The notes beneath the pieces are model-generated. The model was not told the DNA's origin and searched no databases. It worked only from the letters and a program-made list of their open reading frames with translations. A stretch of DNA of 64,000 nt from Gautieria morchelliformis (taxonomy: Eukaryota; Basidiomycota; Agaricomycetes; Gomphales; Gomphaceae), in the NCBI GenBank assembly GCA_015179125.1, contig WHVA01000356.1, forward strand, positions 1 through 64,000, read 5' to 3'. This document shows positions 4,230-60,587 of this stretch, one piece after another. A program made the translations under genes and the position numbers. The first letter of the stretch is position 1. Each line of letters begins with the position of its first letter.

Positions 4230-6665
4230 ATTCCTAATCCGCAGTTTCCTGCATGTCATCAGCCGCGCCGCTGGTGGCTAGTCCTGCCACGCCGTTGATC
4301 AATTCCTGCACTACAAGTTCGAAGGCTTGTTGGTCAGCCGTGGTCAGAGTTGTGGATTGGACGGCAGGTGACTGACCAGGCTCCTGAGAGCTCGTGCTCG
4401 CGATCGGCTGGGTCGGGGTAGGAGGGACGGCTGTGGAGGGGGACGTAGCGGGGGCGGCTGTGGGCTGACTAGGACCCGCACCCGTCCTCTGCACCTTCCG
4501 TGGAGGTCCCCCCGTTGCTGGAGGGGGGCCGTTGGAGGCCCCCCTTCCCCTGCCTTTCCCTCGTCGTCCCCCTCTGTAGGCCCTTTGGCCGTGGTCGAAT
4601 GCCGCACTGTAAGTGGCCACGGCTTTATCATTTATTTGCTGAAACAGGTTGTAGGAGGCAAATCGCTCCATGAAAGATTCATCCGGCATATCATACCTCC
4701 TGTGCTGCCTAGGCGGTACGTAGTACAGCGAGTAGGATTCGGCGTGGCAAGTGGGGGGTATCTGTATTGCACGGAACGGTGGGACCGTGTCTGGGGAGCT
4801 GGCGCACCGTAGTAGCTTGGCGGGTATGTGTGCGCGGCGGCTACTGACGCTGAACGGCTGGCGTGTGGTGTTGCAGGGGCGAGGTTCGTTTCCGCGTACT
4901 GGGACACAGAAACTAAGTTACTGAATACCTCAGATATTTCAGAGATTGTGTCGTCATTGGCATCACGGGGGTGCTTGTTTGCTACATAGAACGACTGGGC
5001 CACCAGCCAAGTGTCGTAGCCTTGTGGCGCAGGCCCAGGATCAGGCCCGCCCGCATGTTGGTATAGCGTGAAGCCATTGTGCCATAGTTGGTAGGCAGCG
5101 GGCGTGAGGGGAGCATTGTCAGCCGTGTTGTCGGTGGTCATAGGGGTGAGTTTTACACAAATTTTTACCAGTGTCTTAACCCCTGTTTTATATGTTTTCT
5201 CAGACCCACCAATCGGTACTAACAATGTGATCGCGTTGTTGCCGATCGGAGATGTTGCTCTCTCCATGTCCGGTAGGTCTATCAATTGTTCGATATCCGG
5301 CAGAGGCTGACCGGACCCCTTTGGCAATTCTTTTACAGAGGTAACGTCCTGTCCTTCGAGGTAGGTGTCGATTGCGGCGAGGTGCTTGGCAGACGGGTAA
5401 GGGAGCCAAGTCCTGTCCCCGCTCTGCCATAGCACCTGGAACCACACATTTTCACCAGAGCTGCAGTGAGTGTCGATTCGCCGCACATGCCATTCTAATG
5501 GTGCATCCCCCAGATCAGTTACCTGTGTAACTGCGCGTCCGGGGAACCGGCGGTCATTGTTCGCCATATGGATTCGTAGCAGGTTGGCATGAAATACTGG
5601 GTGTATACCTTGTGCTAATAGCTCATCCGGTAACGCAAGTTTATATGTTGTGCCAGTTACAACTTCTTTTGTTACTCTGTAGGGACCGATGAACTTGGGC
5701 GACAACTTTCGTGCTCTCCCTTTAGGCAGGCTGAGATTTGCTGTTGATAGGTATACCAGATGCTCAACTTTAAAAGGAGCGGGTCGTCGTTTTCTGTTTG
5801 CCAGGTGTGTTTGCTTTACTCGTTGGGTGAGTATTGAGTCATGTGCCGCAATCAGGGCATCCTTTAGCCTTTGTGCGAAGCGTCTTACTCCCGGAACTTG
5901 CTCCTGATTGGAGTTCCATATCATGGGCCTCGGTAAGCTTCCATAGTTTAGGAAGAATGGTGTGAAACCCGTTGTGTCAGAGCGTGCGCTGTTGAAAGCG
6001 AATTCGACAGCCGGCAGCTTCTGTACCCAGTCCTTTTGGTCAGCCGCCACTGCTATGCACAGCATCTGGGTTATCGTCCTGTTTGCGCGCTCAGTAGCCC
6101 CATCGGTCTGTGGATGGTAGGCCGTCGAAGTTCTCAGCTCGACCCCTATCAGTGAGTGCAGGGATTCCCAGAATGTGGATGTGAACAGGGAATCTCTATC
6201 GCTGATAATGACTTCAGGCACACCGTGCAGCTTGTAAATTGTGTCGAATACAAGTTCAGCGATTTCCTTGGCCCCGTACGTCTGTCTGGAAGGGGTAAGG
6301 TGCACCATTGACAATAGGTGGTCTATGATCACGCATATCATATCAAAATCTCCGTTTCGGTTACTCGACGTCGGCAGGGGACCTACGAAGTCAATTCCGA
6401 TCTGCTGCCAACGACGGGCAGGCACTGTGAGTGGTTTCAGGTTCCCGTATACCTTCTGATTTCTAGGTTTTGCCACGGCACAGGTGTGGCAGCTTTCACA
6501 GAAGTCTTTTACGTCCGTAAAGATACCAGGCCACCACACGTGATCCCTTAAGTAGTAGAACGTCTTGCATCCTCCCAGGTGTGCTAGCAGTGAGTGGGCG
6601 TGGCCGATGATCGTTTCCCTAATCCCTTTGCCCCTGTGCGTTCCGTTAGGTACGCAAAGTCTCAT
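4230..6665 (-). pseudogene. Ty3/Gypsy integrase and chromodomain region
   Basis: Part of the broken element at 3921-12924. In transcription order: zinc-binding HHCC region near 6.45-6.6 kb (HAHSLLAHLGG, CESCHTCAVAK), DDE core (DFVGPLP, ISDRDSLFTS, HPQTDGATERANRT) at about 6.1-6.4 kb, a chromodomain-like segment near 5.35-5.5 kb (WFQVLWQSGDRTWLPYPSA), and a low-complexity Pro/Ala/Thr-rich tail reaching about 4.23 kb. Chromodomain integrases of this group are known to steer insertion toward heterochromatin. Confidence 0.85.
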
Positions 6666-6775
6666 GTCCCCTCATATTCTTACGTATAGCAAGTCGTCTT
6701 GCTTCAGGAAGTTGTCATGGTGATGTAAGTTTTCCATGATACCTTGGAAAAATACATCCCGACTATAGTATTCCT

Positions 6776-8360
6776 TTAGGAAACCGGGGAACTGGAAAGA
6801 CGGGTTGAACATCGATATGAGTTCCCCAAAGCTGGGGGGGAATAATATTGTTGGGAGTTGTCCTGTTCAGGACTGTTATCCTCTAGGTTGGTGCCTTCTT
6901 CAGCGGACGCTGGGTAAGTCTGTTTTGCCTCATGGCGGGCCCTCCGCTTACGTCCTGCAGTCCTTATCTTTGCGGACCCCTCATTGGTCCTTTCAGTTCG
7001 CGGACCTCTCGCGGTGGCATTATCGTCATACCTTAATGGTATTTTTATTGTGCGACCTCTCCGAGTTGTCTTTGGAGTGCCTTCAGTGACATCAGTGGCG
7101 TTTAGGTGCATTTCGAGGGATGCATCGGCCTCGTGGCCTGTTCTCAAAGGGCAGAGGCCTCTCGATATTGTTTGCATGACTGCCGGTACGTCTTCCTCTT
7201 GTATGTATTCTGAGGCAGCTCTTACTATCCCATCAGGTTCGGCGTTATACATCCTGGACAGCGTGTCTGCAACTACGTTTGTTTCTCCTGGGATATAATT
7301 TATTTCAAAGTCAAAATCACTGAGGACATCTATCCACCGATGTTGTCTGGCGGACAGATTTCTTTGATTCAGGATGTGTTCGAGTGGCTTGTGGTCCGTG
7401 AAGATACGGAACCGCACACCTTGTAGTAGGTGTCTGAATCTTTTCAGTGATTCTATTATGGCTAACAGCTCTCTTTCATGTACCGTGTAGTTTTGCTGGG
7501 CCGGATTGAATTTTGCCGACCAGAAAGCTACAGGCGTCGAAGTGTGTGGATCCTTCTCCTGTGATACGACACCTCCTGCTCCCCCGAGGCTCGCGTCGCA
7601 TACGAGATTAATGGGCGGGGCGGAGCTTCCGTAGTCCAGGGCGACTCTGTGTGAGTCGCTGTGTTCCTGCACTATTCTTTTCACGTCCTCAAAAGCCCGG
7701 TGCTCCGTAGGGCCCCATCGCCATGTTGCCGTCGATCCCGTTCTTTCTGTTAGGACCCCATGGGGGTCCGAATCCCTTTGCCGTTCGGTGCGATGTAACT
7801 TACAGTCCCTATGAACGCCGCTAACTGGTCTCTTCCAGAAGGCGTGTTCCAGTTGATTATCTTGTCGACTTTTTCAGGGTCGATAACTAGTCCACGACTG
7901 TTTATTATGTGACCTAAAATTTTTAATTCTTTAGCAAAGAACTGAAGCTTATCTGGGGTTGATAAGTATAATTTCTCTTTGCGTAGAATGTTGATTATTA
8001 GTTTGCAATGTTCGACATGTTCTTCTATACTGTTCGAGTATACTATTATATCATCCAGATAAACATCCATAAAAATGCCGATGTAAGGCCCGAATATATG
8101 GTTCATTAGCGCCTGATAAGTAGCAGGGCCGTTGCAGTCGCCTTGCTGCATTACTAAGCTCTCCATCGTACCATTGGGCGTGTTGAAGGTTGTGTGGTGT
8201 ACGTCCCTGTCTACTACACGAATTTGCTCGTAAGCATCCCTTCCATCAATTAGTGTCCGAAAGGGGTGTCTTAGGACATTCGTGAGTATTGATTCCATAT
8301 TCGGGAGAGGGCTCACAAGTTTTCTTGTATTCTTATTCTGCTCTCTTTTGTCAAGCATGG
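6776..8360 (-). pseudogene. Ty3/Gypsy reverse transcriptase and RNase H region
   Basis: Part of the same broken element. RT palm motif YLDDIIVYS near 8.03-8.06 kb with upstream GRDAYEQIRV; connection and RNase H with FTDHKPLEHIL near 7.4 kb and DALSRMYN-like end near 7.25 kb. Order RT, RNase H, integrase is diagnostic of Ty3/Gypsy. Confidence 0.85.
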
Positions 8361-8699
8361 TTCTGGTATCCTATGGTTGATGTCCCTAAATGGTGGGAGA
8401 GGAGTCTGTCCTGCGGGTTTGCATATGTCGCTTGCATATGGTCTTAGCTCTGTTCGTAGGTTTTCTAGGCCATTTTCTACAACGTCCGCAGCCATTGAGC
8501 TGATCTGCGCTACTTCAGGACCAGAGATATCTTCCAACATTGGGGATACCACCGATACCCTTGACGGGTTGAAACCTATTATTACTTTGTGCTGGAACAG
8601 AAAAGGTGTGCCAAGTATGACATCATAATTTTCTAGGTTAATGACATCAAACCTTCTCTGTTCTTTTATGTCGTTATACGCAAAATCAACGGTCATTGA

Positions 8700-11600
8700 A
8701 CAGGTTATCATTGTTCTGGACCCTGAGGCTGCCAACTGACACAGTAGGGGCTATGCTAGGTGATCTGCTGTGAGCTTTAGTTGATCCACTAGCATCGTCG
8801 ATATGAAGTCAGTGAGGGAGCCTGAGTCCAGCAATGCTCGTATGTCCTTTCCATTAATCTTTGCTGTCACCACTATTGCCTTCGGTATTAACCGTTTGAA
8901 ATCCTTAGGCTTGCTAGTGTTGCGCTCCATCTTCTGCGTAGCTTGTGGGGCCTTCGTCAATTTTCCTCTCGCCTTTACAGATCTAGTATCAGTACCTGGA
9001 ACCATAGACGCATTTTTCAGAGCCGAGGTGCATTCCTCGTCCTCGTCTTCATCTTCTGGACCATCTTCGTCCCAGGTGAGTGTGGGCATCTCATCCTCTG
9101 GGTCATCCTCGGGAGGGACTAGCCCGTTCAATAAGCATGACATAGGTGAGCAGTTTTCATCTTTGTCCTTGTCCAAGAAATCATATTCATGACCGCTGTT
9201 AGCGGCATTCTCCTCTTCTCGACGTTCGTCGCACCTTCTGTTGTGAGCGATCCTTTCTGCATCTTGGGTTGCTAATTGTTGTTTATTTAGCCTTCTCGGG
9301 TTATTCGTGTGGTCAGACCAAGGTTCGCCGTTCCACTTTGAACCTGTTGCGCTTGTCCGTAATGATCTTCGTGGGTCTACCCACATATTTCCGGAGTATC
9401 TTACCAGGTAAGGAGGAACTTCAGAGCAGCGTCGTATATTCTCATATTCCAGCCAGTTTACACAATCGAAATGGTCGTCAAGTATGCGGGATCCGTTTAT
9501 TACATATTGCATGTTAAACATGCGGTCATTGATTAGCACCGAGTAAGCTGTCACGGGAATTACTGTGTATCTTCCTCGCTTTGATGTGTGTTCCGGCATA
9601 TCACAGTTCGCTAGGGATACTCTCGCTGAAAGCCTATCGGCAATCTCGTCCCAGACGCTTTGTGGCTTATCGAATGCAGGGCCCGTCATTGCCTCATCCT
9701 CGAGCCTATCCACCCTGTTTAGCTGCAGTTCAATATTCTCTCTTGCTAGCTTGTCTAGGTCCTTGATGTCTTGTCTGACCTCAATGGTGGCAGCCTGGAC
9801 ACCCGGGGGGCGATTATCTCTGGTTCAGGGCAGCGTTGATCTCGAGGGGCAATCTCGTGAGAAGTGGCCTTGCTGTTTACAGAGGAAGCAAAGATCCTTT
9901 GCTCGTAGTTCTTCTTTTTGTTCTTCCAAGAGGCGTGGTATAGATTTTGAGCGGCGGTGTCCGGGCCTTGAGGGGGGACGGTCTTTATTTCTTGATGGGG
10001 ACGTTACGCAGTCTCTGGCCCTTACGCTGAACGGCTTATAGTTTACAGGGCTGTTTTTGGTAGGAGATCGCGGCCTCGTGGCCTGGCGTGAGCGTGTGTC
10101 CGGCCGTGGGTAGTCGTCACATTTCTTCGGCGTAATCCTGGCGTCTTCCCTGTTACGCAGTGAGTTTCTGCGTTCCTCGAACTGCCTGAGGTGCTCAGCC
10201 TGTTCAAACCTTTCTGCAGCCTCTTCTAGCGTTACAAGGTCCGTATATTCATCTGACATACCCGCCCTTGTCCATTCCAGCCTTGAGTAGCTGTTTGCAC
10301 CGTTCCAAAGCTGTTGGACTAGGTGGAACTCGGTTATATCAGGTAGCCTAGTCGCTAGGGATCATAAGTGTCGTATGAATTCTCTTACAGTCTTCTTTCC
10401 CTGAGATGCCTCATAAAATTTAGAGCGCATTTGCTGTCTAAATCTCGCAGGGAAACAGAAATCAAATAATTCTTTTCCCAGGGACTCCACTGTGTATGAG
10501 TTTACTTGTGGAGCAACGAAGGTCATGAAGTATTTTGCCGCTTTTCCCTTCATGAATTTCTTCATATGTCTTACGCGGAATCTTCTAGGGAAATTGGTCA
10601 TTTCAAACCAATTGTTGACCTCGAAATTCCATTTCTCGAAAGCATCAAAATCAGTGGAGCCATCGTACGGGTCCGGCTCGGATATTTTCACACTTGAGGC
10701 TTCCTTGATTCGAAGCTTCAACTTTTTCTTGTAAGCCTTTTTCTTACGATTCGACTTATATTTTGCCATTGAGTCGCTTGTAGAGCTCTCATCGGAATCT
10801 TCTGAGTCAATGTTGAGGTCGTTCCGACGATTGGCATTTTTCAAAAGCATCTGTGCTAGGTAACCGTCTTTGGGGATCTGCGCGGTCGCTAGCAGGTAAG
10901 CAGCAAGGGGCATAGTTGCCTTGATATTTCCCCCTGGCTTCATGTGCCGTAGTTGATATACTCCAGGGAGGATAGCCGTTGTTTTTCTCCAATAATCGTC
11001 TCTGGCAGGTAATGGATCACCCTTATCACGACGGTCGTTCAGCGTGTGATGTAAGTTTAACGCGATATGGCTGTCCGTCATGCTCACGTTGTCCGATGAT
11101 TGTTCCTCGAACGTTTCTTTGGGGGTAGATTCCGCCCTCCATTTTTCCTTTTCCTTGGCCGTGAGACGCTTCCGGCTCCTGGGTGTGGTTATGGAGGGCG
11201 CGTCGTCTGCTGCGCTCCGCTTAGACGGTGAGGACGACCGTTGATTTATTTGGGGTAGTCCCGCAACTAGGTCAGCACGCTGTTTTATCATTTCTCGCAA
11301 GGATTTAGAGTCCATGGTATCTAGAATGTCTAACATGAAAGTTCTGTAGACATCCTGTTCGTCGGTATGGATCTTCCGTTCTGCACGACGCCTTGACTTT
11401 CCTCTCGCCGCATCCCTGACCCAGCTCTCAGATATGGTACCAAACGGATCCTCGGAGCCATCATAGTCATACCAGAGGGGCAATGAGGAGCGTCCCATCA
11501 CCTTTCCCCCCTCATCCTCATCTGAATTTTCGTTGGAAAACCAGCCGGGAAAGAACAGTGACTCATTGTTGGCGTTATACTTTGCTGGGGACATGTCTCC

Positions 11601-11940
11601 GCCAGAGTGATTACTGTCGCCCGCGGAGCCGTTCTCAGCTATCAACGTGTCGTCGTTCACACCTGGCAGTGTGTAGGGTGGAGTTCTCTCGGATCCATTG
11701 TCAGCTCCTTCCGCTATGCGGGGGCAACTAAGCGTGCGTCCAACGCCATAGGCGTGAGCACTGCTTGCTGCTCCAGCTTCTACCTCGAGAGGGAGCGAGC
11801 CGTCCTTGACTGAGTCAAGGACCGTTCTAGAGGGGCCCATAGTTGGGACTCCCTCTCTTCTGACATCGTCGGGGACAGGTGAGGAGGACCGACTTACCGA
11901 TGTAAGTGGGCTTATCTTGTAGAAACTCGGTTTGGGCAAG
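8700..11940 (-). pseudogene. Ty3/Gypsy gag and protease region
   Basis: Part of the same broken element. A gag-like segment with a retrotransposon capsid signature (KWNFEVNNWFEM, FMKGKAAKYFM) lies near 10.4-10.7 kb, a CCHC zinc knuckle (CFLCKQQGHFSRDC) near 9.87 kb, and an aspartic protease active site (LLDSGS) near 8.8 kb. The N-terminal part is acidic and serine-rich. Confidence 0.8.
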
Positions 11941-11944
11941 TAGG

Positions 11945-12447
11945 AAGTTATATGCCAGATATGAACGATGGGACTATTTAATATTCTCCTCAGTGATAGT
12001 CAACACTGAGTAATATAAAGGAATGCTACGTATTTAATATTCTACATGTTTTTTCAGTTTCATACTATGAAAGTACACTATTAAACTCACCTCCTCAGTG
12101 ATAGTCAACACTGAGGAGGGGAGGCTGCGCATGGGCTTGTTTCACTTGCATATACGAAGTTCCGGCACTTAAGCGCCCTTTAGGCACTGGTGTGCCGTGC
12201 TAAGCGCCCATAGAACGTAACACGTTAGTGAACAGCCTCAGCTCAAAAAGGAAACTTGTCCACAAGCACCCACAAAGGGTCGGTTGGACAGAACATGAAA
12301 AGGAGTAGTAATACAGCCTCAAAAAAATCAAAGAAAATTGTGAAAGGCATAGAATGAATGTCAGCATAGTTTCAGGTCGAAATCGAAAGAAATAACAACA
12401 GAAATGTTAGGTTTGGAGCCTGGTGCACATATGCACCCAACATATCT
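11945..12447 (-). repeat. LTR-like segment in the Ty3/Gypsy leader
   Basis: On the minus strand it starts TGTTGGGTGCATATGTGC and shares with the solo LTR at 731-1166 the start, a GGGCGCT-type motif, the paired CTCAGTG and CACTGAG, and a GTGTACTTTC-type stretch in the same order. No clear target duplication was found, so it may be an old nested LTR or the source of the 731-1166 family. Confidence 0.4.
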
Positions 12448-12688
12448 CCGTTGTTTTAGGATCGCTCGAAGTGTCTCCGACGTCCCACGGGGTCATCCCG
12501 CCATTCGATGGTACCATGTGATGGTGGGGGGCTTCTGAGTAGCTTTTCCCAGAGCGTGTCACCATGATTCTGTCTTCCAGTAAGTTGTGTTAGAAGAAAA
12601 GAGAAAAAAAATAACTTGGAGTCTGATACTCAACAGCGGGTGATCAGTCCGTGTCAAGTTCGTTGTTGACAATGAGTAGGTTAAAAAA

Positions 12689-12924
12689 TGTGATGATTTT
12701 AGAGTCGGAGCTCGAAGTGAACGCGACAGACTGAGGAAATGGAGTTCTTAGGAGGGAGGAACTCGATATAACCAGTCTTTGTCAACGATAGATATGGGGT
12801 ACTAGGAGTCTCAAGTATTTACAGGATAATTGGCATCAACTTATATATGTCTTTCTCATTCTATATTTGGCTCGGTCGGGGTCTGTAAGGTGTCGGCGTT
12901 AGTAAGCTTGCCCAGTTTCTTACA
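12689..12924 (-). repeat. 5' LTR of Ty3/Gypsy element
   Basis: 236 bp, partner of 3921-4156. Five of six differences fall at CpG-derived positions. The following five bases repeat ccagt. Confidence 0.95.
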
Positions 12925-12929: not shown

Positions 12930-13188
12930 TCACGTCCAACGCTACTGCGCGCGCACCCAATCCTCCTGTTGGCATTTCCTCTGCCTCAACTGCTGGCAGC
13001 CTCTGGCTCTCCTGCCCACTGTCTCGGTGCCTGCTGGATCTGTCTGTCTGCTGCTGGATCTCTGTGTCTGCTACTGGATCTCTGTGTCTGCTGCTGGATC
13101 TTTGTGTCTGCTGCTGGCTCTCTGTGTCTGCTACTAGCTCTCTCTGTGTCTGTTAATGGGGCTGTCTGTCTCTCTACAGCTCCCTCAG
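12930..13188 (+). other. CT-rich leader of Helitron E
   Basis: Continues Helitron E after the Ty3/Gypsy element. Contains several tandem CTGCTGGATCTCTGTGT-type units (about 13010-13140), resembling the TGTCTGC repeats of class ii leaders. It ends CTCCCTCAG just before a GTAAAT donor-like site at 13189. No TATA box seen. Confidence 0.5.
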
Positions 13189-14420
13189 GTAAATATTGTT
13201 AATATTTTCGCTTTTTTATCCTCTTTTGACTTCTTTTCAGCCTAGGCTGCTCCTCTCATTGCCTCCCACCTTTCTGTATGGTAATTAATGGCTCTGGTGT
13301 GTTTTTTCCTATCATACCTATCATTTCATCTCTTTTTGACTTCTTTTCAGCTTAGGTTGCTCCTCTCATCGCCTCCCACCTTTCTTGTTAATATTTTCGC
13401 TTTTTTATCCTCTTTTGACTTCTTTTCAGCCTAGGCTGCTCCTCTCATTGCCTCCCACCTTTCTGGATGGTAATTAATGGCTCTGGTGTGTTTTTTCCTA
13501 TCATACCTATCATTTCTTCCAATAATTTTCGCTTTTTTATCCTCTTTTTGTCTTCTTTTCAGCCCCCTCTCTCAATGCCTCCCACCTTGCCTGTCTGATA
13601 TTGCTGCATGTGGTGTGTGTCTTGCTATCATGATTTGATATTTATTAGAATCAGCTGCTCTCCATGGTAAATATTGCTATTTCTTGCTATAATTTTCGCT
13701 TTTTTAATCTCTTTTTGACTTCTTTTCAGCTTATGTTGCTCCTCTCATTGCCTCCCACCTTTCTTGGTCATCACTACTGCCTCCTGTGTGTTCTTTCTTT
13801 ATCATATCTGTCTTTTCTTCTAATAATTTTCGCTTTTTTATCCTTTTTTTGCCATCTTTTCAGCCCATGTTCCTCCCCTCAGTGCCTCCCACCTTGCCTA
13901 TCTGCCATTGCTGCATCTGGTGTGTCTCTTCCTATCATATTTATGTTGCTTTGATATTTATTAGGATCAGCTTCTCTCCCCGGTATTTCTTGCAATAATT
14001 TTGGCTTTTTTAACCTCTTTTTGACTGCTTTTCAGCCTATGTTGCTCCTCTCATTGCCTCCCACCTTTCTTGGCCATCATTACTGCTTCTGGTGTGTTTT
14101 TTTCCTTATCATATCTGTCATTTCTTCCAATAATTTTCGCTTTTTTATTCTCTTTTGGCCTTCTTTTCAGCCCAGGTTCCTCTCAGTGCCTCCCACCTTG
14201 CCTGTCTGCCACTGCTGCATTGGGTGTGTGTCTTTCTATCATATTTATGTTGTGTTGATATTTATTAGGATCAGCTTCTATCTGTGGTGTTTCTTCCTGT
14301 AATTTTCGCTTTTTTGACCTCTTTTTGACTTCTTTTCAGCCCAGGTTGCTCCTCTCATTGCCTCCCACCTTTCCTGCTCATCATTACTGCATCTGGTGTT
14401 TTTTCTGTCATTTCTTGCAA
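13189..14420 (+). repeat. Mini-exon ladder A (tandem splice-site modules)
   Basis: Nine repeats of a module: TTTTCGCTTTTTTA, then TTTTTGACTTCTTTTCAG (branch-point-like TTGAC, pyrimidine tract, CAG), then about 50-57 bp starting CCTAGGTTGCTCCTCTCA and containing TTGCCTCCCACC, then GTGTGTTTTT (donor-like). CAG acceptors end at 13240, 13350, 13429, 13562, 13729, 13863, 14035, 14170 and 14339. Alternate modules contain a second block, TATTTATTAG followed by 18 bp (GATCAGCTTCTCTCCCCG type) and GT. Exon and intron status is inferred from splice consensus only. Confidence 0.6.
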
Positions 14421-14449
14421 TAATTCTCGCTTTTTATCCCTTTTTGTAT

Positions 14450-14655
14450 TTTATTTTATATGTATATACATATATCCTGTATAGTTTAAAAAATTGATAT
14501 CAATAGATTTCTCTGAATTGACTCAAAATTAATGACAACAACCCTGCCTGCAAATATCAGTCTATTTCTCTGTTATCCATTGTACAACCTTCCGACATTT
14601 ATTTATTTTCACTTGCCCCTACAATAATTTCTTTCACTTTTCCACTCTTGCAGAT
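14450..14655 (+). repeat. AT-rich tract of Helitron E
   Basis: One to two degenerate units of the AATTGATATCAATAGATT and CAAAATTAATGACAACA tandem tract, then a pyrimidine run ending CTCTTGCAG at 14654, directly before the minisatellite. Confidence 0.5.
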
Positions 14656-28439: not shown

Positions 28440-28960
28440 GACATGTATCAGTGTCTATTGTGTGACATATATAGACATAAATAAAATAGCAAAACAAACC
28501 ACATTTAAGCAGCTGTTGTCATTAATTTTAGAAAAGCCTGGATAATTTATTGATATTTACCTTTTAAAAAAATGTCAAAAAATGTACAGTACATGTAACC
28601 TGAAGCTGGTATTAATTTTAGCAAAGTCAGATAATTCATTGATATCTATACTTATTTTTCAACAAAAGATAAAAAAAAACACACTACATTAAAACAGAAG
28701 TTGTTATTAACTTGAGCAAAAAAGTTATTGATATCCATTTGCGAAGAAATGTCAAAAAAATGTAAAGGATATTTAAGTTGGCTGTTGTTGAGGTTAGCAA
28801 GTTGCATCTATTGATGTCTATTTGCGAAGAAATATCGAAAAATGTACAGGATATGTAAGTTGGCTATTGTTAAGGTTAGCAAGTTAGGTTTATTGATAGC
28901 TATTTGCGAAAAAATATCGAAAAAATAAACAGGCCATTCAAGCAGAAGCTGGTGTCAATT
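28440..28960 (-). repeat. AT-rich 80-95 bp tandem repeats of Helitron B
   Basis: Reverse complement of the tract at 2280-2786; units contain CTATTTGCGAAGAAATATCG on the plus strand. Confidence 0.75.
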
Positions 28961-30559: not shown

Positions 30560-31300
30560 GAGGCTGTTACTACTTATTAACTTTTAGCAAACTCAGGGAC
30601 ATGTATCAATGTCTATTTTGTGACATATACAGACATAAATAAAATAGTCAAGGAAACCATATTTAAGCAGCTGCTGTCATTAATTTTAGCAAAGTCAGGA
30701 TTACCTATTTTTGAAAAAATGTCAAGAAAATGTCCAGTACATGTAAGCTGAAGCTGTTATTAATTTTAGCAAAGTTAGGATTATCTATTTTGCGAAAAAT
30801 GTCAAAAAAATGCACTGCACATTTAACCTGGAGCTGTTGTCAATTTCCACAAAGTCAGGATAATTTATTGACATCTATTTGTGAAAAAATGCCAAAAAAG
30901 TACAGTACATTGAAGCAGAAGCTGTTATTAATGCCCAGCCAAAGCCAGAGAAGCCCAGAGACTGACAGAGAAACCCAGAGCCCAGCCAAAGCCATAGTAA
31001 GCCAGCCACCAGTATAGGTAAGCAGCTTTACAGTCAATAAAACAATAACACAAACCACATTTAAAAGCAGAACCTATTGTCATTAATTTGAGAGGAAACT
31101 TATTGATGTCAATTTTCGAAAAAAAACCTGAAAAATATTGGTATTAAAATACATTCTTTTCTGCAGTTATTTAAATCAATTTTCCAAAAAAATCACAAAA
31201 ATATAATGCACATGTGACAATACTATATGATGAAAAACAAAAGGAACCAATAAAATTACCAACACAAATAAAATAAAATACATGGCAATGCATAAAAAAA
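30560..31300 (-). repeat. AT-rich tandem tract of Helitron A
   Basis: Units with AATTTTAGCAAAGTCAGGAT and TTTGCGAAAAATGTC on the plus strand; an intercalated AGCCAAAGCCAGAGAAGCCC stretch near 30950 is the class ii GGCTTTGGCTGG motif. Confidence 0.7.
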
Positions 31301-42800: not shown

Positions 42801-43589
42801 GGTAATATCTTTTTGTTAATGCATTGCCATGTATTTTATTTATTTGTGTTGGTAATTTTATTGGTTCCTTTTTTTTTTCATCATATAGTATTGTCACATG
42901 TGCATTATATTTTTGTGATTTTTTTCGAAAATAGATTTAAATAACATCCCAAGACTGCTGAAAAAAAATGTTTTAATACCAATATTTTTCAGGTTTTTTT
43001 TCGAAAATTGACATCAATAAGTTTCCTCTCAAATTAATGACAATAGGTTCTGCTTTTAAATGTGGTTTGTGTTATTGTTTTATTGACTGTAAAGCTGCTT
43101 ACCTATACTGGTGGCTGGCTTACTATGGCTTTGGCTGGCCTCTGGGTTTCTCTGTCAGTCTCTGGGCTTCTCTGGCTTTGGCTGGGCATTAATCACAGCC
43201 TCTGCTTCAATGTACTGTACTTTTTTGACATTTTTTTGGAAATAGATATCAATAAATTATCCTGACTTTGTGAAGATTGACAACAGCTCCAGGTTAAATG
43301 TACAGTGCATTTTTTTGACATTTTTCGAAAAATAGATAATCCTAACTTTGCTAAAATTAATAACAGCTTCGGCTTACATGTACTGGACATTTTCTTGACA
43401 TTTTTTCGCAAAATAGATAATCCTGACTTTGCTAAAAATTAATGACAGCAGCTGCTTAAATATGGTTTCCTTGACTATTTTATTTATGTCTGTATATGTC
43501 ACAAAATAGATATTGATACATGTCCCTGAGTTTGCTAAAAGTTAATAAGTAGTAACAGCCTCTGCTTGCTTCACTTTGGGGCCCTTGGG

Positions 43590-45606: not shown

Positions 45607-46240
45607 AGAGCGATGCTGCAGAACCACACTCCCCACTGGTGTCCTCCTGTGTTCTGGCTGTGGTGGGCTTACTACTGCTTTGGCTGGGGTCTTGGTGTCT
45701 TTCTGTGTGTCTCTGGGTGTCTTTCTGGGTGTCTCTGGGTGTCTTTCTGTGTGTCTCTGGGTGTCTTTCTGTGTGTCTCTGGGTGTCTCTGGGCTTCTTT
45801 GGCTGTGAATTGACACCAGCTTCTGCTTCAATGTCCTGTATATTTTTTGATATTTTTTCGCAAATTGCTATCAATACACCTAACTTGCTAACCTTAATAA
45901 TAGCCAACTTAAATATCCTGTACATTTTTTTGATATTTTTTCGCAAATAGAAATCAATACATCTAACTTCCTAACCTTAATAACAGCCAACTTAAATATC
46001 CTGTACATTTGTTTTGATATTTTTTCGCAAATAGATATCAATAACTTATTCTGACTTTGCTAAAGTTAATAACAACTTCTGTTTTAATGTAGTGTGTTTT
46101 TTTTTTATCTTTTTTCAAAAAATAAATATAGATATCAATGAATTATCCTGACTTTGCTAAAATTAATGACAACAGCTGCTTAAATGTGGTTTCTTTTCCT
46201 ATTTTATATATGTCACAAAATAGATACTGATACATGTCTC

Positions 46241-47715: not shown

Positions 47716-48739
47716 GCCGAACGGTAAGGAGGGAACGCCAGGAACCTGCCCAACTGGCGATTCCTCTGTCTGCGTCTGCTGTCTGCTGTTTGCTATTTGC
47801 TGTCTGCTGTCCGCTGTCCGCTGTCTGCTGTCTGCTGTCTGCTGTCTGCTCTGTCTGCTGTCTCCTCCTTTAGCTGGCTGGCTGTCTATTGTGTTGGCTG
47901 ACTGGCTATCTATTGGCTTGGCTGGCTTTCTATTGGTAGGTAATATCTTTTTTTTTATGCATTGCCATGTATTTTATTTTATTTGTGTTGGTAATTTTAT
48001 TGGTTCCTTTTTTTTTTCATCATATAGTATTGTCACATGTGCATTATATTTTTGTGATTTTTTTGGAAAATTGATTTAAATAACTGCAGAAAAGAATGTA
48101 TTTTAATACCAATATTTTTCAGGTTTTTTTTCGAAAATTGACATCAATAAGTTTCCTCTCAAATTAATGACAATAGGTTCTGCTTTTAAATGTGGTTTGT
48201 GTTATTGTTTTATTGACTGTAAAGCTGCTTACCTATACTGGTGGCTGGCTTACTATGGCTTTGGCTGGCCTCTGGGTTTCTCTGTCAGTCTCTGGGCTTC
48301 TCTGGCTTTGGATGGACATTAATACCAGCTTCTGCTTCAATGTACTGTACTTTTTTGACATTTTTTCGCAAATAGATATCAATAAATTATCCTGACTTTG
48401 TGACAATTGACAACAGCTCCAGGTTAAATGTACAGTGGAATTTTTTGACATTTTTTGAAAAATAGATAATCCTAACTTTGCTAAAATTAATAACAGCTTC
48501 AGCTTACATGTACTGGACATTTTCTTGACAATTTTTTTCAAAAAATAGGGAATCCTGACTTTGCTAAAAATTAATGACAGCAGCTGCTTAAATATGGTTT
48601 CCTTGACTATTTTATTTATGTCTGTATATGTCACAAAATAGACATTGATACATGTCCCTGAGTTTGCTAAAAGTTAATAAGTAGTAACAGCCTCTGCTTG
48701 CTTCACTTTGAGGCCCTTGGGGATATGCTACGCATGCTA

Positions 48740-51388: not shown

Positions 51389-52469
51389 GCAGTTCGGTAG
51401 GGTGGAACGCCAGGAATCTGCCCGACTGGCAATTCCTCTCTCTGCTGTCTGCTCTGTTTGCTGTGTGCTCTTTGCTGTGTCTGCTCTCTGCTGTGTCTGC
51501 TCTCTGCTGTGTCTGCGCTGTCTGCTGTCTGCTACGCTCTCTGGTGGGTCCTCCTTTAGCTGGCTGGCTGTCTATTGCTTTGGTTGACTGGCTATCTATT
51601 GCTTTGGTTGGCTGGCTTTCTATTGGTTTGCTTGGCTGGCTATCTATAGGCTTGGCTGGCTTTCTATTGGTAGGTAATATCTCTTTTTTAATGCATTCCC
51701 ATGTATTTTATTTTATTTGTGTTTGTAATTTTATTGGTTCCATTTTTTTTTTCATCATATTGTATTGTCACATGTGCTTTATATTTTTGTGAATTTTTTC
51801 AGAAATAGATTTAAATAAAATCCCAAGACTGTGCTGAAAAAAAGTATTTATATATATATATATTTCAGGTTTTTTTCGAAAATTGACATCAATAAGTTTC
51901 CTCTAAAATTAATGACAATAGATTCTGTTTTAAATGTGGTTTGTTTTATTGTTTTATTTACTGTAAAGCCACTTACCTATACTGGTGGCTGGCTTACTAT
52001 GGCTTTGGCTGGGCTCTGGGTTTCTCTGCCAGTCTCCGGGCTTCTCTGGCTCGGGCTGGGCATTAATAACAGCTTCTGCTTCAATGTACTGTACTTTTTT
52101 GGCAATTTTTTAACAAATAGATGTCAATAAATTATCCTGACTTTGTCAAAATTGACAACAGCTCCAGCTTAAATGTACAGTGCATTTTTTTGACATTTTT
52201 CGAAAAATAGATATCTTGACTCTGCTAAAATTAATAATAACTTCAGCTTAAATGTACTGGACATTTGTTTTGACATTTTTCAAAAAATAGATAATCCAGA
52301 CTTTGCTAAAATTAATGACAGCAGCTGCTTAAATATGGCTTCCTTTACTATTTTATTTATATCCGTATGTCACAAAATAGATATTGATACATGTCCCTGA
52401 GTTTGCTAAAAGTTAATGAAAAGACAGCCTCTGCTTGCTTTGCTTTGAGGCCCTTAGGATATGCTACAC

Positions 52470-53945: not shown

Positions 53946-54395
53946 TACCTATCTTGGAATGTGTTTGACCTATCCCAAGTTTGATTCACCCAATGCGTTT
54001 GACCTTGCTGATGCATTTGACCTTACCGATGTGTTTGACTTGCACCCCCATGCGAAGCGTGGGTATCCACCTAGTCTAAGAGTTAAACGCGGGGGGTGGG
54101 TGGTTGTGGGCGGTGCTTATGTCAGGTTTTAGGTCAGCATTGGTCAGCTGGCCAATCGGACGCGAGCGGCGCAGCCGCGAGCCAAGAACGCTGCGCAGCA
54201 GCACCGGTTCAAGCGCCCAACTGGCCACATCCGGCGACCGGTCGCTGCTTCAGACCGAGCGGTCTGCCGTTCCTCCGCAGGAACGCACAGCTGTGCAGCG
54301 TGCTGGCTCTCTCTCTCTCTCTCTGCCACTGGCTATCTCTCTCCTCTTGCTGGCTTTCTCTGTCTGTGCCTTCCAGGCTCTCATCACTGCACCTG

Positions 54396-55495
54396 GTGGG
54401 TTTTCTTTGCCATTGATTGTTGCTTTTTTATCTTCTTTTTTATCTTCTTTTTTATTGCTAATATTTTCGCTTTTTTATTCATTTTCTGACTGCTTTTCAG
54501 CATAGGTTGCTCCTCTCACTGCCTCCCCATCCTTCCTGGCTCTCATCACTGCCCCTGGTGGGTTTTCCTTGCCATTGATTGTTGCTTTTTTATCTTCTTT
54601 TTTATCTTCTTTTTTATTGCTAATATTTTCGCTTTTTTATTCATTTTCTGACTGCTTTTCAGCATAGGTTGCTCCTCTCACTGCCTCCCCATCCTTCCTG
54701 GCTCTCATCACTGCCCCTGGTGTGTTTTCCTTGCCATTGATTTTCGCTTTTTTATCTTCTTTTTTATTGTTGTTATTTTCGCTTTTTTAGTCATTTTCTG
54801 ACTGCTTTTCAGCATAGGTTGCCCCTCTCACTGCCTCCCCATCCTTCCTGGCTCTCATCACTGCCCCTGGTGTGTTTTCCTTGCCATTGATTTTCGCTTT
54901 TTTATCTTCTTTTTTATTGTTGTTATTTTCGCTTTTTTAGTCATTTTCTGACTGCTTTTCAGCATAGGTTGCCCCTCTCACTGCCTCCCCATCCTTCCTG
55001 GCTCTCATCACTGCCCCTGGTGTGTTTTCCTTGCCATTGATTTTCACTTTTTTATCTTCTTTTTTATTGTTGTTATTTTCGCTTTTTTAATCATTTTCTG
55101 ACTGCTTTTCAACATAGGTTGCTCCTATCACTGCCTCCCCATCTTGCCTGGCTGTTATCACTGCCCCTGGTGCGTGATTTCTTCCATTAATGTTCACTTT
55201 TGGTTATCTTCTTTTTGATTGTTGTGCTTTCTTCGAATATTTTGATCAGTTGCTGACTTCCTTTCAGCCCTGGTTTCTCCTCTCACTGCCTCCCCATCAT
55301 TCCTGGCTCTCATCCCTGCCCCTGGTGGGTTTTCCTTGCCATTGATGTTTGTTTTTGAGGTTAATTTTGTTTCTGTTTCTATGTTAAAGAGAAATCAATA
55401 AATAAATTCTTCTGAGTTTGCCTTGGTCTGTGTGCAATGTAAGTCTGATATTGGCAGCTTTATTGTCTCACTACTCTTATGCCTTCATTTCTCAG
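54396..55495 (+). repeat. Mini-exon ladder B in the leader of Helitron J
   Basis: Tandem modules with period 162, 162, 150, 150, 150 and 155 bp. Each has TTCTGACTGCTTTTCAG (CTGAC branch-like motif and acceptor), a 57-bp exon-like block (CATAGGTTGCTCCTCTCACT to CTGCCCCTG), and a GTGTGTTTTCC or GTGGGTTTTCC donor. Exon-like blocks: 54501-54557, 54663-54719, 54813-54869, 54963-55019, a degenerate one near 55113-55169 (acceptor CAG changed to CAA), and 55268-55324. The 57-bp block is a multiple of three and open in two phases but lacks any ATG, so an untranslated spliced leader fits best. A last typical intron, GTAAGT to TTTCTCAG, lies at 55439-55495. Splicing is inferred. Confidence 0.7.
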
Positions 55496-58400
55496 GGATC
55501 CATCTACTCCAGAGAGAAACCGTCAGCGGGAGCGTGCACAGGCGAGGGAGCAGCGGTTAATGACACCACACACTGATCGGAGAGCGCGTATCAGAGATCG
55601 GGACCAGTCACTCCCTCCACCACCCCCACCTTTTGCCATCCCTCACCCTCCTCCTAGAAGCAATGCAGCTGATCCTTTTCAACAACCTGTTGCTGGGCCA
55701 TCACTTGCTCCAAGGCTTGCGGGGCCATCACGTGCTCCTGATCCCAGTCCTACAGAGCAGGTGGCAGCCCTTCGTGCTCAGTTAGCAGTTATCACACCAT
55801 GGCAGCCCCTGAGAGGACATAGGCCAGACCCTGTACAGCCAGCTCCTGTAGTAGGTTCAGCAGCCATTGCAGACTTGCGTGCTCAGGCAGCTGCATTGCA
55901 GCCTTTGGGAAGGCACAGGCGTGCATCTGTACAACCAGCTCCTCCTCCTCCTGTAGTAGGTTCTGCAGGAGTGGCAGCATTGCGGGCTCAGGCTAATGCA
56001 GTAAGACCAATGCCTCTGCTACTCCCTGCACTTCTGCGGCCTCTTCAGCGACTGCCTGCACCTCCTCAGCCTCCTCAGCCACTCCCTGCACCTCCACAGC
56101 CTCTTCGGCGACTGCCTGCACCTCCTCGGCCTCCTCAGCCACTCCCTGCTCCTCCTCAGCCACTCCCTGCACCTCCACAGCCTCTTCAGCCGCTCCCTGC
56201 ACCTCCTCAGCCTCCTCAGCCACTCCCTGCACCTCGGCAGCGTCCTCAGCGACCTCCTCCTCCTGTTCCACTTGGTCGCTCTAGAATAATTGAGGCAGAT
56301 GTGCAGCGTCATGATCTGGGTCCCATGGTTATTCCCTGCCCTGACTGTGGAGCATTACACTGGATGGCAGAACGCCTGCAGAAATCCTCAAATCGGCGGC
56401 CCAGATTTGGTGATTGCTGTATGGAAGGAAAGGTGCAGCTTCCAGAGCTGCCAGTGCTCCCTCAGCCATTGAGACGGCTCTTAGAGGGCCAGGACCCTGA
56501 GGCCAAACAGTTTCGCAAGAACATCAGGCAGTACAATGCTGCATTTGCATTCACTTCCTTGGGAGCCGAGTTTGATCTAGATTTGCTTCGGGAGGGTCGT
56601 GGTCCATATGTCCTCAAGCTGCAGGGCGAACTGTATCATATTCATGGCTCTCTCATCCCTAACCCTGGGAGGCGGATACAGTATGCCCAACTTTATATAT
56701 ATGATCCAGCATTGGCTTTGGCACAGAGGAACGCGCGTAACCCAGGTCTGTCTCCAACTATCATGGGAGACTTGCAGGAAATGCTCCTCCTATGCAATCC
56801 TCATGTTCCCATATATAGACAAGCGGCTGAGAGGCTCAGAGCTCAGGGACAGAATGGTGAGATCCGGGCTAGGCTCACGTACAGGGAACACAGGGATCCT
56901 AGGAGGTATAATATCCCTACTGCAGATGAGATTGCGGTGGTTCTTCCTGGAGATGGCATCATCCCTGAACATAGGGATGTTATTGTCCAGCTCAAAGGTG
57001 GGCGCTTTCGAAGGGTATCCGATATGAATCCAAACTATGCCTCTCTTCACTATGTCTTGCTCTTTCCCAGGGGAGAGTTGGGGTGGCAACCTGGTATTCG
57101 CTATCGCCAATTACCAGGCGGGCGTGAGCGAAGTGGGCGTGTCACCCAAATTCAGTTCCATTCCTATCGTCTCTTCCAGAGAACAGAAGAACCTACAACA
57201 CTCCTGCGTGCTGGCAAATTATTCCAGCAGTACATTGTAGACTCTTGGGCCGCTGCAGAGCAAAGCAGGCTGTGGTGGATCAGGACAAATCAACACACTC
57301 TCCGTGCTGAGATGTATAACCAGATGATGGATGCCTTTCATCGCAATGACAATGACAGAGATCCAAACAACTTGGGCGCAAGATCCATTCTGCCTGCCAC
57401 ATTTCAGGGGGGGACACGGGACATGCAGCAAAACCTGCAGAACTCTCTGGCCATTTCAAGGAAGCATGGTGTGGCAGATCTCTTTATTACCATGACTGCC
57501 AATCCCAACTGGCAGGAGGTATTGGATGCATTGTTGCCCGGACAATCTCCTCAGGACAGGCCTGACCTGGTGTCGCGGGTGTTCCAGCTCAAAAAGAAAT
57601 ACCTCATTGACTTGATCGTCAAGGAAAAGATTTTTGGGGAGACCGTCGCTCGCGTCCACACCATTGAATTCCAGAAAAGGGGACTCCCACACATGCATAT
57701 TCTTATCTGGTTTGAAAGAGGTTCCAAGATCAGACATCCACATGAGGTGGATTCAATGATTTCAGCAGAGTTCCCTGATCCAGAGACTCATCCTGTCCTC
57801 TACCGGTTGGTCTGTGAGCTGATGACACATGGTCCCTGTGGACAAATGAAACCAAATGCACCCTGCATGGAAAATGGCAAGTGCAAGAAAGGCTTCCCAA
57901 AGCCATTCTGTGAGGAAACCAGTCTGAATGAGGATGGATATCCAAAATATTGTCGTCGCAATGATGGAAGGCTGCACAATGTCAGAGGTGACATGCTGGA
58001 CAACAGATGGGTTGTGCCATACTCTGCTCTGCTCTTGCTCAAATTCTGGTGTCACATCAACCCTGAACTCACCATCAATGTGAGGTGTATCAAGTATATT
58101 CACAAGTATCTCTACAAGGGCCATGATCGGACCACCATGGAGTTTGGTCGCACCCAGGATGAAATTAAGCAGTACCTGGACGCTCGCTATGTCAGTGCTC
58201 ATGAGGCCTGTTGGAGGTTGCTGGAGTGGGAAATCCACACCCAGGTGCCTGCAGTCATGGCACTGCCAGTCCATGAAAAGGACCATCACACAATCATCTT
58301 TGATCCCGACCAGGATGTGGACAACATCCTGGAAAGGGCTGAGGCGAAAAAGACACCGCTCATGGCTTACTTTGAGGCCAATGATATCTACCCTGAAGCA

Positions 58401-58568
58401 CGTGATCTGCTCTATGTGGAGTTTCCTGAGCATTTTACCTGGCACTCACAGGAAAAGGTATGGACACCACGCCAAGGAGGTTATAGCATCGGTCGCCTTC
58501 ACTTTGCAAACCCTAGATCAGGAGAGAGGTTTTTTGTGCGCACTCTCCTCACAGTGGTCAAGGGCTAG
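55479..58568 (+). CDS. Helitron Rep domain protein (N-terminal part of Rep-helicase)
   Basis: 1029 codons from ATG 55479. Residues 1-60 are Arg/Gln-rich; 80-260 are dominated by PQPLPAPPQPL repeats; a Helitron N-terminal zinc motif (IPCPDCGALHW, then FGDCC) lies at about residues 285-320; the replication initiator (HUH) domain follows with LPHMHIL at 736-742 (H738, H740) and the two-tyrosine motif KYIHKYLYKG (Y873, Y877). It nicks and rejoins DNA in rolling-circle transposition. The ORF ends LLTVVKG and the helicase continues one frame over, so the two halves of what is normally one protein are separated by a single-base shift near 58560. If the intron 55439-55495 is removed this ATG is lost and initiation would have to be elsewhere. 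Confidence 0.92.
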   Translation: MPSFLRDPSTPERNRQRERAQAREQRLMTPHTDRRARIRDRDQSLPPPPPPFAIPHPPPRSNAADPFQQPVAGPSLAPRLAGPSRAPDPSPTEQVAALRAQLAVITPWQPLRGHRPDPVQPAPVVGSAAIADLRAQAAALQPLGRHRRASVQPAPPPPVVGSAGVAALRAQANAVRPMPLLLPALLRPLQRLPAPPQPPQPLPAPPQPLRRLPAPPRPPQPLPAPPQPLPAPPQPLQPLPAPPQPPQPLPAPRQRPQRPPPPVPLGRSRIIEADVQRHDLGPMVIPCPDCGALHWMAERLQKSSNRRPRFGDCCMEGKVQLPELPVLPQPLRRLLEGQDPEAKQFRKNIRQYNAAFAFTSLGAEFDLDLLREGRGPYVLKLQGELYHIHGSLIPNPGRRIQYAQLYIYDPALALAQRNARNPGLSPTIMGDLQEMLLLCNPHVPIYRQAAERLRAQGQNGEIRARLTYREHRDPRRYNIPTADEIAVVLPGDGIIPEHRDVIVQLKGGRFRRVSDMNPNYASLHYVLLFPRGELGWQPGIRYRQLPGGRERSGRVTQIQFHSYRLFQRTEEPTTLLRAGKLFQQYIVDSWAAAEQSRLWWIRTNQHTLRAEMYNQMMDAFHRNDNDRDPNNLGARSILPATFQGGTRDMQQNLQNSLAISRKHGVADLFITMTANPNWQEVLDALLPGQSPQDRPDLVSRVFQLKKKYLIDLIVKEKIFGETVARVHTIEFQKRGLPHMHILIWFERGSKIRHPHEVDSMISAEFPDPETHPVLYRLVCELMTHGPCGQMKPNAPCMENGKCKKGFPKPFCEETSLNEDGYPKYCRRNDGRLHNVRGDMLDNRWVVPYSALLLLKFWCHINPELTINVRCIKYIHKYLYKGHDRTTMEFGRTQDEIKQYLDARYVSAHEACWRLLEWEIHTQVPAVMALPVHEKDHHTIIFDPDQDVDNILERAEAKKTPLMAYFEANDIYPEARDLLYVEFPEHFTWHSQEKVWTPRQGGYSIGRLHFANPRSGERFFVRTLLTVVKG

Positions 58569-60438
58569 ATCCTTTGAGGAGCTTAGGTCGGTGGATGGCA
58601 TACAATATGCTACTTACAAGGAGGCCTGTCGTGCAAGGGGACTTCTGGATGATGATCAGGAGTTGAGGTTGTGTCTCCAGGAAGCCAGTGGCATGAAAAC
58701 AGGTGCTCAGCTCAGACATCTCTTTGCCACCATCCTTGGCCATTGCAATCCATCAGGCCCCGGTAGACTGTGGGATGGCTTCAGGGAGCACATATGTGAT
58801 GATCTCAGACATCAGCTCCAAATCAGACATGGTATGCAGGATCCACAGGACGATCAGGTTTATGATTTTGGCCTCTTTCTCTTGGAAAAGATCCTCCAGC
58901 AGGGTGGAATGTCCTTGAGCAGCTTTGATGATATGCCTCGGGTGGCAGGCGAGTGGGAGGCCCTCATTGGAAACAGGTTCATAGCTGAGCAGAGGGACTA
59001 TGACCCTGTTGAAGAGAGACAGATGGCTGATGAGGAGGTTCCCAAGCTGAATGAGGGGCAAAGGTCTGCGCATGACCAGATATTACGGTCAGCACTGACC
59101 AGAGATGCTCATGGGAAACCTGATGGACAAATGTTTTTTGTCACTGGCTCAGGTGGCGCCGGGAAATCATTCACATGGAACACTCTAATCCACTCCTGTA
59201 GAGCGGAGAGCCTCATTGTGATTGCAGTAGCCTCATCTGCAATGGCTGCACTTATCCTCACTAAGGGTACAACCTCTCATAGCATGCTTGGAATTCCCAT
59301 TCCTGTCCATGAGCGCTCTTTCTCCTCCATCAAAAAGAACTCTGACAAGGCTGACATGCTGAGACGGGCCAGTCTCCTCATCTGGGATGAGGCTGCAATG
59401 CAGCATCGCCATGCCATAGAGGCCATTGACAGGACACTGAGGGATTTCCTTGACCAGCCTGACAGACCCTTTGGTGGCATCACAGTCGCCTTTGGAGGTG
59501 ACTTTCAGCAGACTCTCCCAATCGTCCCTAAAGGCTCCAAGGAGGATATCGTGGGAGCTACCCTTCAGAAGTCATATCTGTGGCCAAAGATCAATGTCCT
59601 CCATCTGACAGAGAACATGCGGGTGAGAAATGACCCTGACAGAGCCAGGTTTGCAGAATGGCTGCAGAATGTGGGCCAGGGAAAGGATCTCCCACTAGAT
59701 CATACGTTCTCACTGCCTCCTCACATGGTTTGTGGCCCTGGAATTGAAGATCTGATCCAGGAAATATACCCTGGCATTGGCAATCATGTCCCTGCCCAGG
59801 ACAATTACTTTTTGGAGCGTGCCATCCTCTGTGCCAGAAACACTGAGGTCAATGAGATCAATTCCATGGTGTTTAGGGAGTTTCCAGGTGATGCTCAGGT
59901 CTTGCACTGTGCAAATTCCATTGAAGAGTCCGACGATGCAGATCGGTATCCTGTGGAGTATCTGAATTCCATAGAGATGGGCTGTCTTCCTCCTGCTCGC
60001 TTGCAAGTCAAGCCTGGAGTGCCTCTGATGCTGTTGCGCAATTTGGATCAGAAGCAAGGACTATGCAATGGGACAAGGTTGCGGTTGGTGAGGATAAGCA
60101 TTAGAGTGTTGGAGGTCAGGATCATCTCAGGTCCATGTGCAGGAAATATTGCTTTCATCCCCAGGATCATCATTAAGCCATCAGAGGGAGAGTTGCCATT
60201 TGTGCTGAAAAGGAGGCAGTTTCCAGTGCGTTTGGCATTTGCAATGACTATCAACAAGTCTCAGGGACAGTCTTTGGGTACGGTTGGGCTGGACCTGAGA
60301 TATCCAGTGTTTGGACATGGTCAGTTGTATGTTGGTGTATCAAGAGGGACCAACTGGAACAGAGTGAAGGTCTTGCTTGAGGAGGGTTTGGACACAACCA
60401 ACATTGTATATAAAGATGTATTACTTAGAGCTCTTTGA
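58569..60438 (+). CDS. Helitron PIF1-like helicase (C-terminal part of Rep-helicase)
   Basis: The frame is open from 58123, overlapping the Rep ORF, but homology starts at about 58560 with ARSFEELRSVDGIQYATYKE. Helicase motifs: Walker A TGSGGAGKSFTWNTL near 59.15 kb, Walker B LLIWDEAAMQHRHAIEA near 59.38 kb, FGGDFQQTLPIVPKG near 59.5 kb, NTEVNEINS near 59.85 kb, and the C-terminal FAMTINKSQGQSLGTVGLDL with VYVGVSR-like end near 60.25-60.35 kb. It unwinds DNA during rolling-circle replication. No other interruption was noticed. Separate expression is unlikely; frameshift, recent mutation or sequencing error at the junction are the options. Confidence 0.92.
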
Positions 60439-60587
60439 TTTTGTTATATTCACTTCTCTTGATATGGTTTATGTGTGTTACTTGATTTTACTTGATGCAA
60501 ATTGGTTACTTTTATTTTCCCCAATGCACTTGACCTTACCGATGCGTTTGACCTACACCCCCGCGCGAAGCGCGGGTACCCACCTAG
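60439..60587 (+). other. Helitron J 3' terminus
   Basis: AT-rich stretch after the helicase stop, then CACTTGACCTTACCGAT and GCGTTTGACC, perfect 7-bp stem hairpin CCCGCGC-GAA-GCGCGGG, TACCCAC, CTAG. Only two iterations here, fewer than in non-autonomous copies. Confidence 0.92.

Follow-up and report, generated by a model that had tools for sequence, protein, structure and literature searches.

Why would the leader of a transposon carry a tandem array in which every repeat looks like an intron followed by a short exon? The question is raised by a 64,000-nt stretch of Gautieria morchelliformis DNA (hereafter, the window), for which an initial annotation described six modules of this kind upstream of the Rep-helicase (RepHel) gene of a Helitron. 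Helitrons with internal tandem arrays of variable copy number exist, and we know of none whose internal tandem repeats follow a splice-site logic. Tandem units of exon plus intron within one gene occur in Dscam, where the exons are coding and mutually exclusive, unlike the blocks of the window ladder, which appear to be non-coding and sit in the leader of a transposon.

Splicing of RepHel transcripts has a precedent, since RNA-seq found introns in the transcripts of the Pleurotus RepHel genes HELPO1.1 and HELPO1.2, according to the part of that report considered here (PMC4289320). Searches of the open-licence literature on Helitrons with introns, leaders or exon arrays found no ladder such as the present one, and those on split start codons found no split start in a Helitron. 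Precedents exist for Helitrons as such, for introns in RepHel, for tandem repeats within Helitrons and for expression that depends on introns; the searches brought up neither an untranslated exon-intron ladder nor a transposase start codon made by splicing and shared between families.

Anatomy of the ladder and of the Helitron that carries it

The existence of the ladder was confirmed. Six blocks of 57 nt are interspersed with intron-like units, beginning some 300 nt into a canonical Helitron (Table 1), and Tandem Repeats Finder places the repeat at 54369-55346, with a period of 150 and 6.3 copies. The donor and acceptor coordinates of the initial annotation agree with a motif scan, where the ladder donors begin at the first positions of the six introns of Table 1 and at 55325, and the stretches from CTGAC to the acceptor finish at the last positions of these introns. 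As had been described, all six blocks measure 57 nt, are open in two phases and contain no ATG. The motifs proved somewhat less regular than claimed. A GTGKGT donor in every module holds for six of the seven, the exception being GTGCGTGATT at 55170 (GTGCGT); a CTGAC-CAG acceptor in every module holds for five of the six window introns, the fifth ending in CAA (55110-55112) with a TAG 5 nt downstream; and introns of 93 or 105 bp hold for five of the six that separate successive blocks (105, 105, 93, 93, 93 and 98 nt).

Table 1. Coordinates of the ladder, of its carrier Helitron and of other arrays in the window.
Feature	Position	Strand	Basis or remark
Helitron carrying the ladder	54075-60587	+	5′ TCTAAGAG..., 3′ hairpin CCCCCGCGCGAAGCGCGGG then CTAG; Helitron_like_N and PIF1 domains inside
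Pyrimidine-rich end of first leader exon	54300-54395	+	sequence; transcription would start upstream or here
Predicted intron 1, GTGGGT...CTGAC...CAG, 105 nt	54396-54500	+	donor/acceptor motifs, intron models
57-nt block 1	54501-54557	+	block coordinates
Predicted intron 2, 105 nt	54558-54662	+	donor/acceptor motifs, intron models
57-nt block 2	54663-54719	+	block coordinates
Predicted intron 3, 93 nt	54720-54812	+	donor/acceptor motifs, intron models
57-nt block 3	54813-54869	+	block coordinates
Predicted intron 4, 93 nt	54870-54962	+	donor/acceptor motifs, intron models
57-nt block 4	54963-55019	+	block coordinates
Predicted intron 5, acceptor CAA, next TAG ends at 55117	55020-55112	+	motifs; missed by strict model
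57-nt block 5	55113-55169	+	block coordinates
Predicted intron 6, GTGCGT...CTGAC...CAG, 98 nt	55170-55267	+	donor/acceptor motifs, intron models
57-nt block 6	55268-55324	+	block coordinates
Last ladder donor, GTGGGT	55325-55330	+	motif; CAG/TAG acceptor absent up to 55438
Split start codon, AT 55437-55438 and G 55496	55437-55496	+	unspliced = ATG TAA
57-nt predicted intron GTAAGT...TTTCTCAG splitting the RepHel start codon AT/G	55439-55495	+	27/28 leaders
Rep part of RepHel, DPSTPERNRQ...	55497-58568	+	reading frame and domain match
Helicase part of RepHel, different overlapping frame	58123-60438	+	reading frame and domain match
5′ part of the second Helitron's leader	3791-3924	+	about 9 kb away from its type III ladder, gypsy-type element between
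Second, diverged ladder (type III), leader of another Helitron	13031-14446	+	Tandem Repeats Finder, profile, intron models
80-83 bp arrays	2286-2495, 28726-28924, 45826-46043; 30673-30869, 43251-43461, 48381-48593, 52133-52334

The carrier starts with TC (54075, TCTAAGAG) and ends with CTRR (CTAG at 60587), which the subterminal hairpin CCCCCGCGCGAAGCGCGGG precedes, and it encodes a Rep (HUH) domain (PF14214, E 3e-58) and a PIF1-type helicase (PF05970, E 1.9e-66). Insertion between A and T is seen for the group: a T comes after the CTAG at 60587 and, among 24 listed Helitron 5′ ends, 14 lie directly after the CTAG of another Helitron, the remaining ten being preceded by A (nine) or by T (one). 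Head-to-tail joints, in which CTAG is followed by TCTAAGAG, occur in the window at 54074/54075, 45415/45416 and 29323/29324 (the last on the minus strand). HELPO1 and HELPO2 of Pleurotus ostreatus share the TC 5′ end, the CTRR 3′ end, the subterminal hairpin and the A-T insertion, and their RepHel lies in a single frame of about 1,400 aa, as given in the part of the report considered here (PMC4289320); unlike the present element, they are not described in that part as bearing a ladder or a split start codon, and the words UTR and tandem are absent from the main text. The window RepHel (55479-60438) is split over two overlapping frames of 1029 and 771 aa, so the description of the element as autonomous is doubtful for this copy; other copies have single open RepHel frames of 1,671 aa and more. 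Proline-rich tandem repeats, whose length differs among copies, occupy the Rep N-terminus at 56013-56250. A scan of viral contigs for Rep gave two pattern matches, neither of them confirmed.

Leaders ahead of related RepHel genes

The genome searched is of fungal type and 122 Mb in size. A DNA search gave at least 89 matches (40 of 254 candidates scored), and a Rep search, in which 100 of 1023 candidates were scored, gave at least 100 places with identities of 94-100%. The sample comprised 28 of the 100 listed Rep places (L029-L056), taken as 20 stretches of 7.6-10 kb and eight leaders of 1.55 kb. Including the window, 29 loci were compared. The start region of Rep was seen in 26 of them, in duplicate in two, giving 28 leaders; L041, L051 and L055 yielded none and were excluded from the count. 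Leaders ahead of related RepHel genes differ in sequence, and several bear ladders of like logic with 3-8 units: seven are of type I, the type of the window (3-6 units), 12 of type IV (4-8 units) and nine of type V (1-2 units). Ladders of types II and III were found 3′ of RepHel in L035, L040, L048 and L039, where they belong to the following Helitron of two joined head to tail. Within the window, a type III leader starts at 3791 and is broken at 3925-12923 by a stretch with a gypsy-type element.

The type III ladder (13.2-14.4 kb in the window; also L039) contains 12-nt blocks flanked by GATCAG and GT[AG]NNT, for example CTTCTCTCCATG, which are candidate micro-exons. Other elements of the window carry 80-83 bp arrays of the form GTACAT...GCTAAC...AACAG, with a block of 13-17 nt between. 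The strict intron model described below failed in the one unit of these arrays tested, and they might be either micro-exon ladders or the product of chance.

Intron signatures compared with chance

The strict model required, in this order, a GTRNGT donor, YTRAY, a pyrimidine tract and YAG within 45-120 nt. Five of the six introns between window blocks (type I) match it, the fifth failing with its CAA acceptor. Signatures number five on the plus and none on the minus strand of 54075-55560 (3.4 per kb), and four and none over the second array (13031-14500), against 12 and 11 in the remaining 61 kb of the window (0.188 per kb and strand). A type I unit taken by itself fits the model and its opposite strand gives nothing, while dinucleotide shuffles fit it in 2 of 1000 cases for the 162-bp unit, 9 of 1000 for the 150-bp unit and 1 of 1000 for type II. 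When the donor was relaxed, plus and minus counts became 8 and 0 in the window ladder, 14 and 0 in the 13-kb array, 6 and 0 in L048, and 8 and 0 in L039. Ladder types IV and V fall outside the model, because leaders L043, L037 and L047 yield the start-codon intron alone, even with the looser donor. Type IV lacks YTRAY near the acceptor (one unit tested, plus two leaders); the splice signals of type V were assessed by eye, and its inner acceptor reads AACAA in some copies.

Two further lines were considered and dropped. Within type I, 87 of 182 columns never vary and the splice columns do not stand out clearly from the others by lower variability, so their constancy was given up as evidence of splicing. 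The absence of ATG from 32 unique blocks (27 expected by shuffles) makes a weak test, because type I and II introns are likewise depleted and the units are copies of each other.

Comparison between types bears on the unit itself. Twenty-six unique units (of types II and III, with one resembling type IV) were scored against the window consensus. G, T and G of the donor were kept in all (1.0), as was position 6, with 0.96 at position 5 and position 4 changed throughout; the branch-like motif kept T, G and C at 1.0 and A at 0.81; and the acceptor kept C and A at 1.0 and G at 0.62. Type II units that read CAC for CAG regain an AG 5 nt downstream, as CCCAG. Exon columns agreed with the window consensus at a mean of 0.78 and have a conserved core of their own. 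The suggestion that the repeat unit behaves as intron plus exon is therefore borne out at the level of motifs, types II and III retaining the donor, the branch-like motif and the acceptor AG of a putative intron. Homologous repeats lacking both acceptor and donor, regarded by the initial annotation as telling against splicing, were not seen among these loci, but type IV units are without a near branch site.

Spliced copies, in which blocks would be joined, were sought in the genome and gave no match at 0 or 1 mismatch. At 2-3 mismatches there were 446 matches (33 in the control), which among those listed belong mostly to another repeat, and none of 20 returned loci holds a ladder exon by profile. 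From another such search came two matches with 3 mismatches, neither of which has the ATG, and two further ones matched one block at a time, never joined (40 candidates scored in each). Missing spliced copies are uninformative here, because Helitrons move as DNA.

A start codon split by an intron-like stretch

Just ahead of the Rep frame, GTAAGT is present in all 28 leaders and preceded by AT in 27. These 27 share AT/GTAAGT (the slash marks the predicted junction), where GTAAGT opens a stretch of exactly 57 nt ending in TTTCTCAG, and then G GAT CCA/CCT/TCT, so that the predicted spliced start is ATG GAT ..., or M D P S T P E. The leader of L053 reads AAG/GTAAGT for AAT/GTAAGT, a change that would abolish the split start codon (one of 28 leaders). 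Between types I and V, the predicted start-codon intron agrees at 17 of 29 inner positions, at all six donor positions and at 20 of the last 22 nt. The first nine codons of these two types show two synonymous changes and no others. YTRAY is found in it only at a distance, of 33-41 nt.

A genome-wide search for ATGTRAGT followed, after 35 to 65 nt, by AGGGANYCNTCNACNCC gave 407 matches (198 + 209), and its reversed control none (0 + 0). The 31 matches shown with sequence divide into 20 with GTAAGT, of which 18 share one length and two are shorter by 1 and by 2 nt, and 11 with GTGAGT, with matched lengths of 74-82. Such length changes are out of phase, as expected for an intron. An intronless form of the start, sought genome-wide with a slightly longer pattern, gave no match.

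The same arrangement recurs in a second family. In L058, which continues the type II leader, a Rep with 57% identity over 464 aa is encoded, and here too a ladder precedes the Rep gene. Its start region reads AAAAT/GTGAGT...CTGACTGTAATTCAAG/GGAGCCC, with a predicted intron of 63 nt and dissimilar sequence (GTGAGT...CTGAC...AAG, the acceptor being AAG), and the predicted spliced start is M E P S T P E R D R Q. The proteins of the two families align from residue 2, MDPSTPERNRQ vs MEPSTPERDRQ, the initial Met having been inserted by us; their first nine codons (type I vs family 2) differ by four synonymous changes and two that are not. AT/intron/G is thus kept across diverged relatives at the point where protein homology begins, as would be expected of a start codon made by splicing, and we take this split codon to be the strongest sign in these sequences of a leader that would be spliced and untranslated.

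Other translation starts are possible, because the unspliced frame of family 1 has an in-frame ATG inside the start-codon intron and a Met about 22 codons into Rep is common to all types and to family 2. The unspliced frame of the second family has TGA 8 codons upstream and no ATG. For the window type, a YAG was sought between the last ladder donor (55325) and 55438 and none was found, so that the exon ending in AT is left without an evident acceptor on the route from block 6 to AT/G. This exon could arise either with that donor unused or with GAG or AAG serving as acceptor; as a third option, the donor at 55325 could be joined straight to 55496, with translation from the Met about 22 codons in.

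What the ladder may do

The reading that we favour, with a probability of about 0.6, is that the ladder represents an amplified 5′-untranslated exon-intron array of the RepHel transcript, which would boost or gate expression. From the anatomy, the comparison of copies, the two families and the split start pattern observed, we infer that the introns would be removed, that the blocks would form part of a 5′ UTR and that expression would be affected. Each unit would consist of a non-coding exon of about 51-58 nt and an intron of about 50-117 nt, the number of units varying through tandem duplication and loss. Transcription would begin within the CT-rich stretch at 54300-54395 or upstream of it; in the RepHel transcript the exons of the ladder would be joined or skipped, and the array would lead to a last, conserved intron interrupting the start codon. 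Removal of this intron would form the start codon of M(D/E)PSTPER..., and its retention would leave ATG TAA (family 1) or ATG TGA (family 2). RepHel expression would in this way depend on splicing, and rise with it, in a host that may favour intron-bearing transcripts. Several observations weigh against this reading: the CAA acceptor of one window intron, the want of a near branch site in type IV, the AACAA inner acceptor of some type V copies, the last leader exon of the window type with no evident acceptor, the distant YTRAY of the start-codon intron and its AAG acceptor in family 2, the exception L053, and the other possible translation starts.

Basidiomycete genes can rely on introns, and amplified leader introns would be of benefit in a setting such as that of another basidiomycete, Cryptococcus neoformans, where introns raise mRNA levels, their number and position acting cumulatively, and some introns act negatively, as stated in the part of the work considered here (PMC3744415). 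Since this effect adds up with intron number, amplified leader introns could raise or set the transposase dose. The Cryptococcus case, as presented in that part, differs in concerning host genes with ordinary introns and no amplified intron array (PMC3744415).

A related possibility, which we consider unlikely though worth retaining, is that the ladder belongs to a regulatory switch, in which skipping or retention of ladder exons and an ATG-stop formed on retention of the last intron would restrict RepHel to some cell types or stages. The start-codon intron is kept in 27 of 28 leaders and unspliced AT/GTRAGT reads ATG TAA or ATG TGA in both families, as such a switch would have it; but any GTRAGT donor placed at AT yields an ATG-stop, which for this reason need not be selected, and in family 1 the gate could be circumvented by way of the in-frame ATG that the intron contains.

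Slightly lower we place the view that the array is a minisatellite, a leader segment with one real intron amplified by chance, in which splicing would be without consequence and copy number would drift by slippage or unequal exchange. It would account for the spread in unit number among close copies, from 3 to 6 in type I and from 4 to 8 in type IV, for type I splice columns that are not clearly more constant than others and for the loss of the near branch site in type IV units, and tandem repeats do occur in Helitrons elsewhere. It fits poorly with the finding that several leader types, and a second family as well, have ladders of differing sequence in a common position, and with the persistence of donor and acceptor AG across types I-III.

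A role as spliceosome decoy, or in supplying small RNAs that work for or against the element, is very improbable: many splice-like sites lie within a short stretch, but nothing specific points there. Finally, it is hardly credible that the blocks encode a repeated N-terminal extension of RepHel, for although blocks of 57 nt preserve phase in type I and no stop in the six window blocks interrupts the frame that joins Rep at 55496, the usual block length is 57 nt in type I (8 of 9 unique blocks), 51 in type II (6 of 7) and 58 in type IV (13 of 16), lengths that do not keep phase across the group, the sole long upstream ATG frame (54119) meets a TAG in the first ladder block, and homology between the families starts only at the split start. 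The coding exon hinted at by the divisibility of 57 by three was accordingly abandoned.

Returning to the untranslated exon-intron array, a wider claim may be put forward tentatively: several Helitron families in one genome may have made transposase expression conditional on splicing, with a start codon present in the spliced RNA only and with the unit copy number of arrays, rebuilt in different sequence, setting the dose. If this were true, the gain and loss of introns in the form of repeat units would be the means by which a transposon evolves its level of expression. Should the introns be removed as predicted, the hundreds of near-identical genes in this one genome, with their differing numbers of 5′-untranslated introns, would constitute a natural titration series, suited to tests of the cumulative intron effect on fungal expression and of the origin and persistence of tandem intron-exon units, and to a test of whether a transposon can make translation initiation at its own start codon subject to the host spliceosome. 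RepHel starts read from genomic frames (MPAFLRDPSTP...) would in that case be wrong for such elements.
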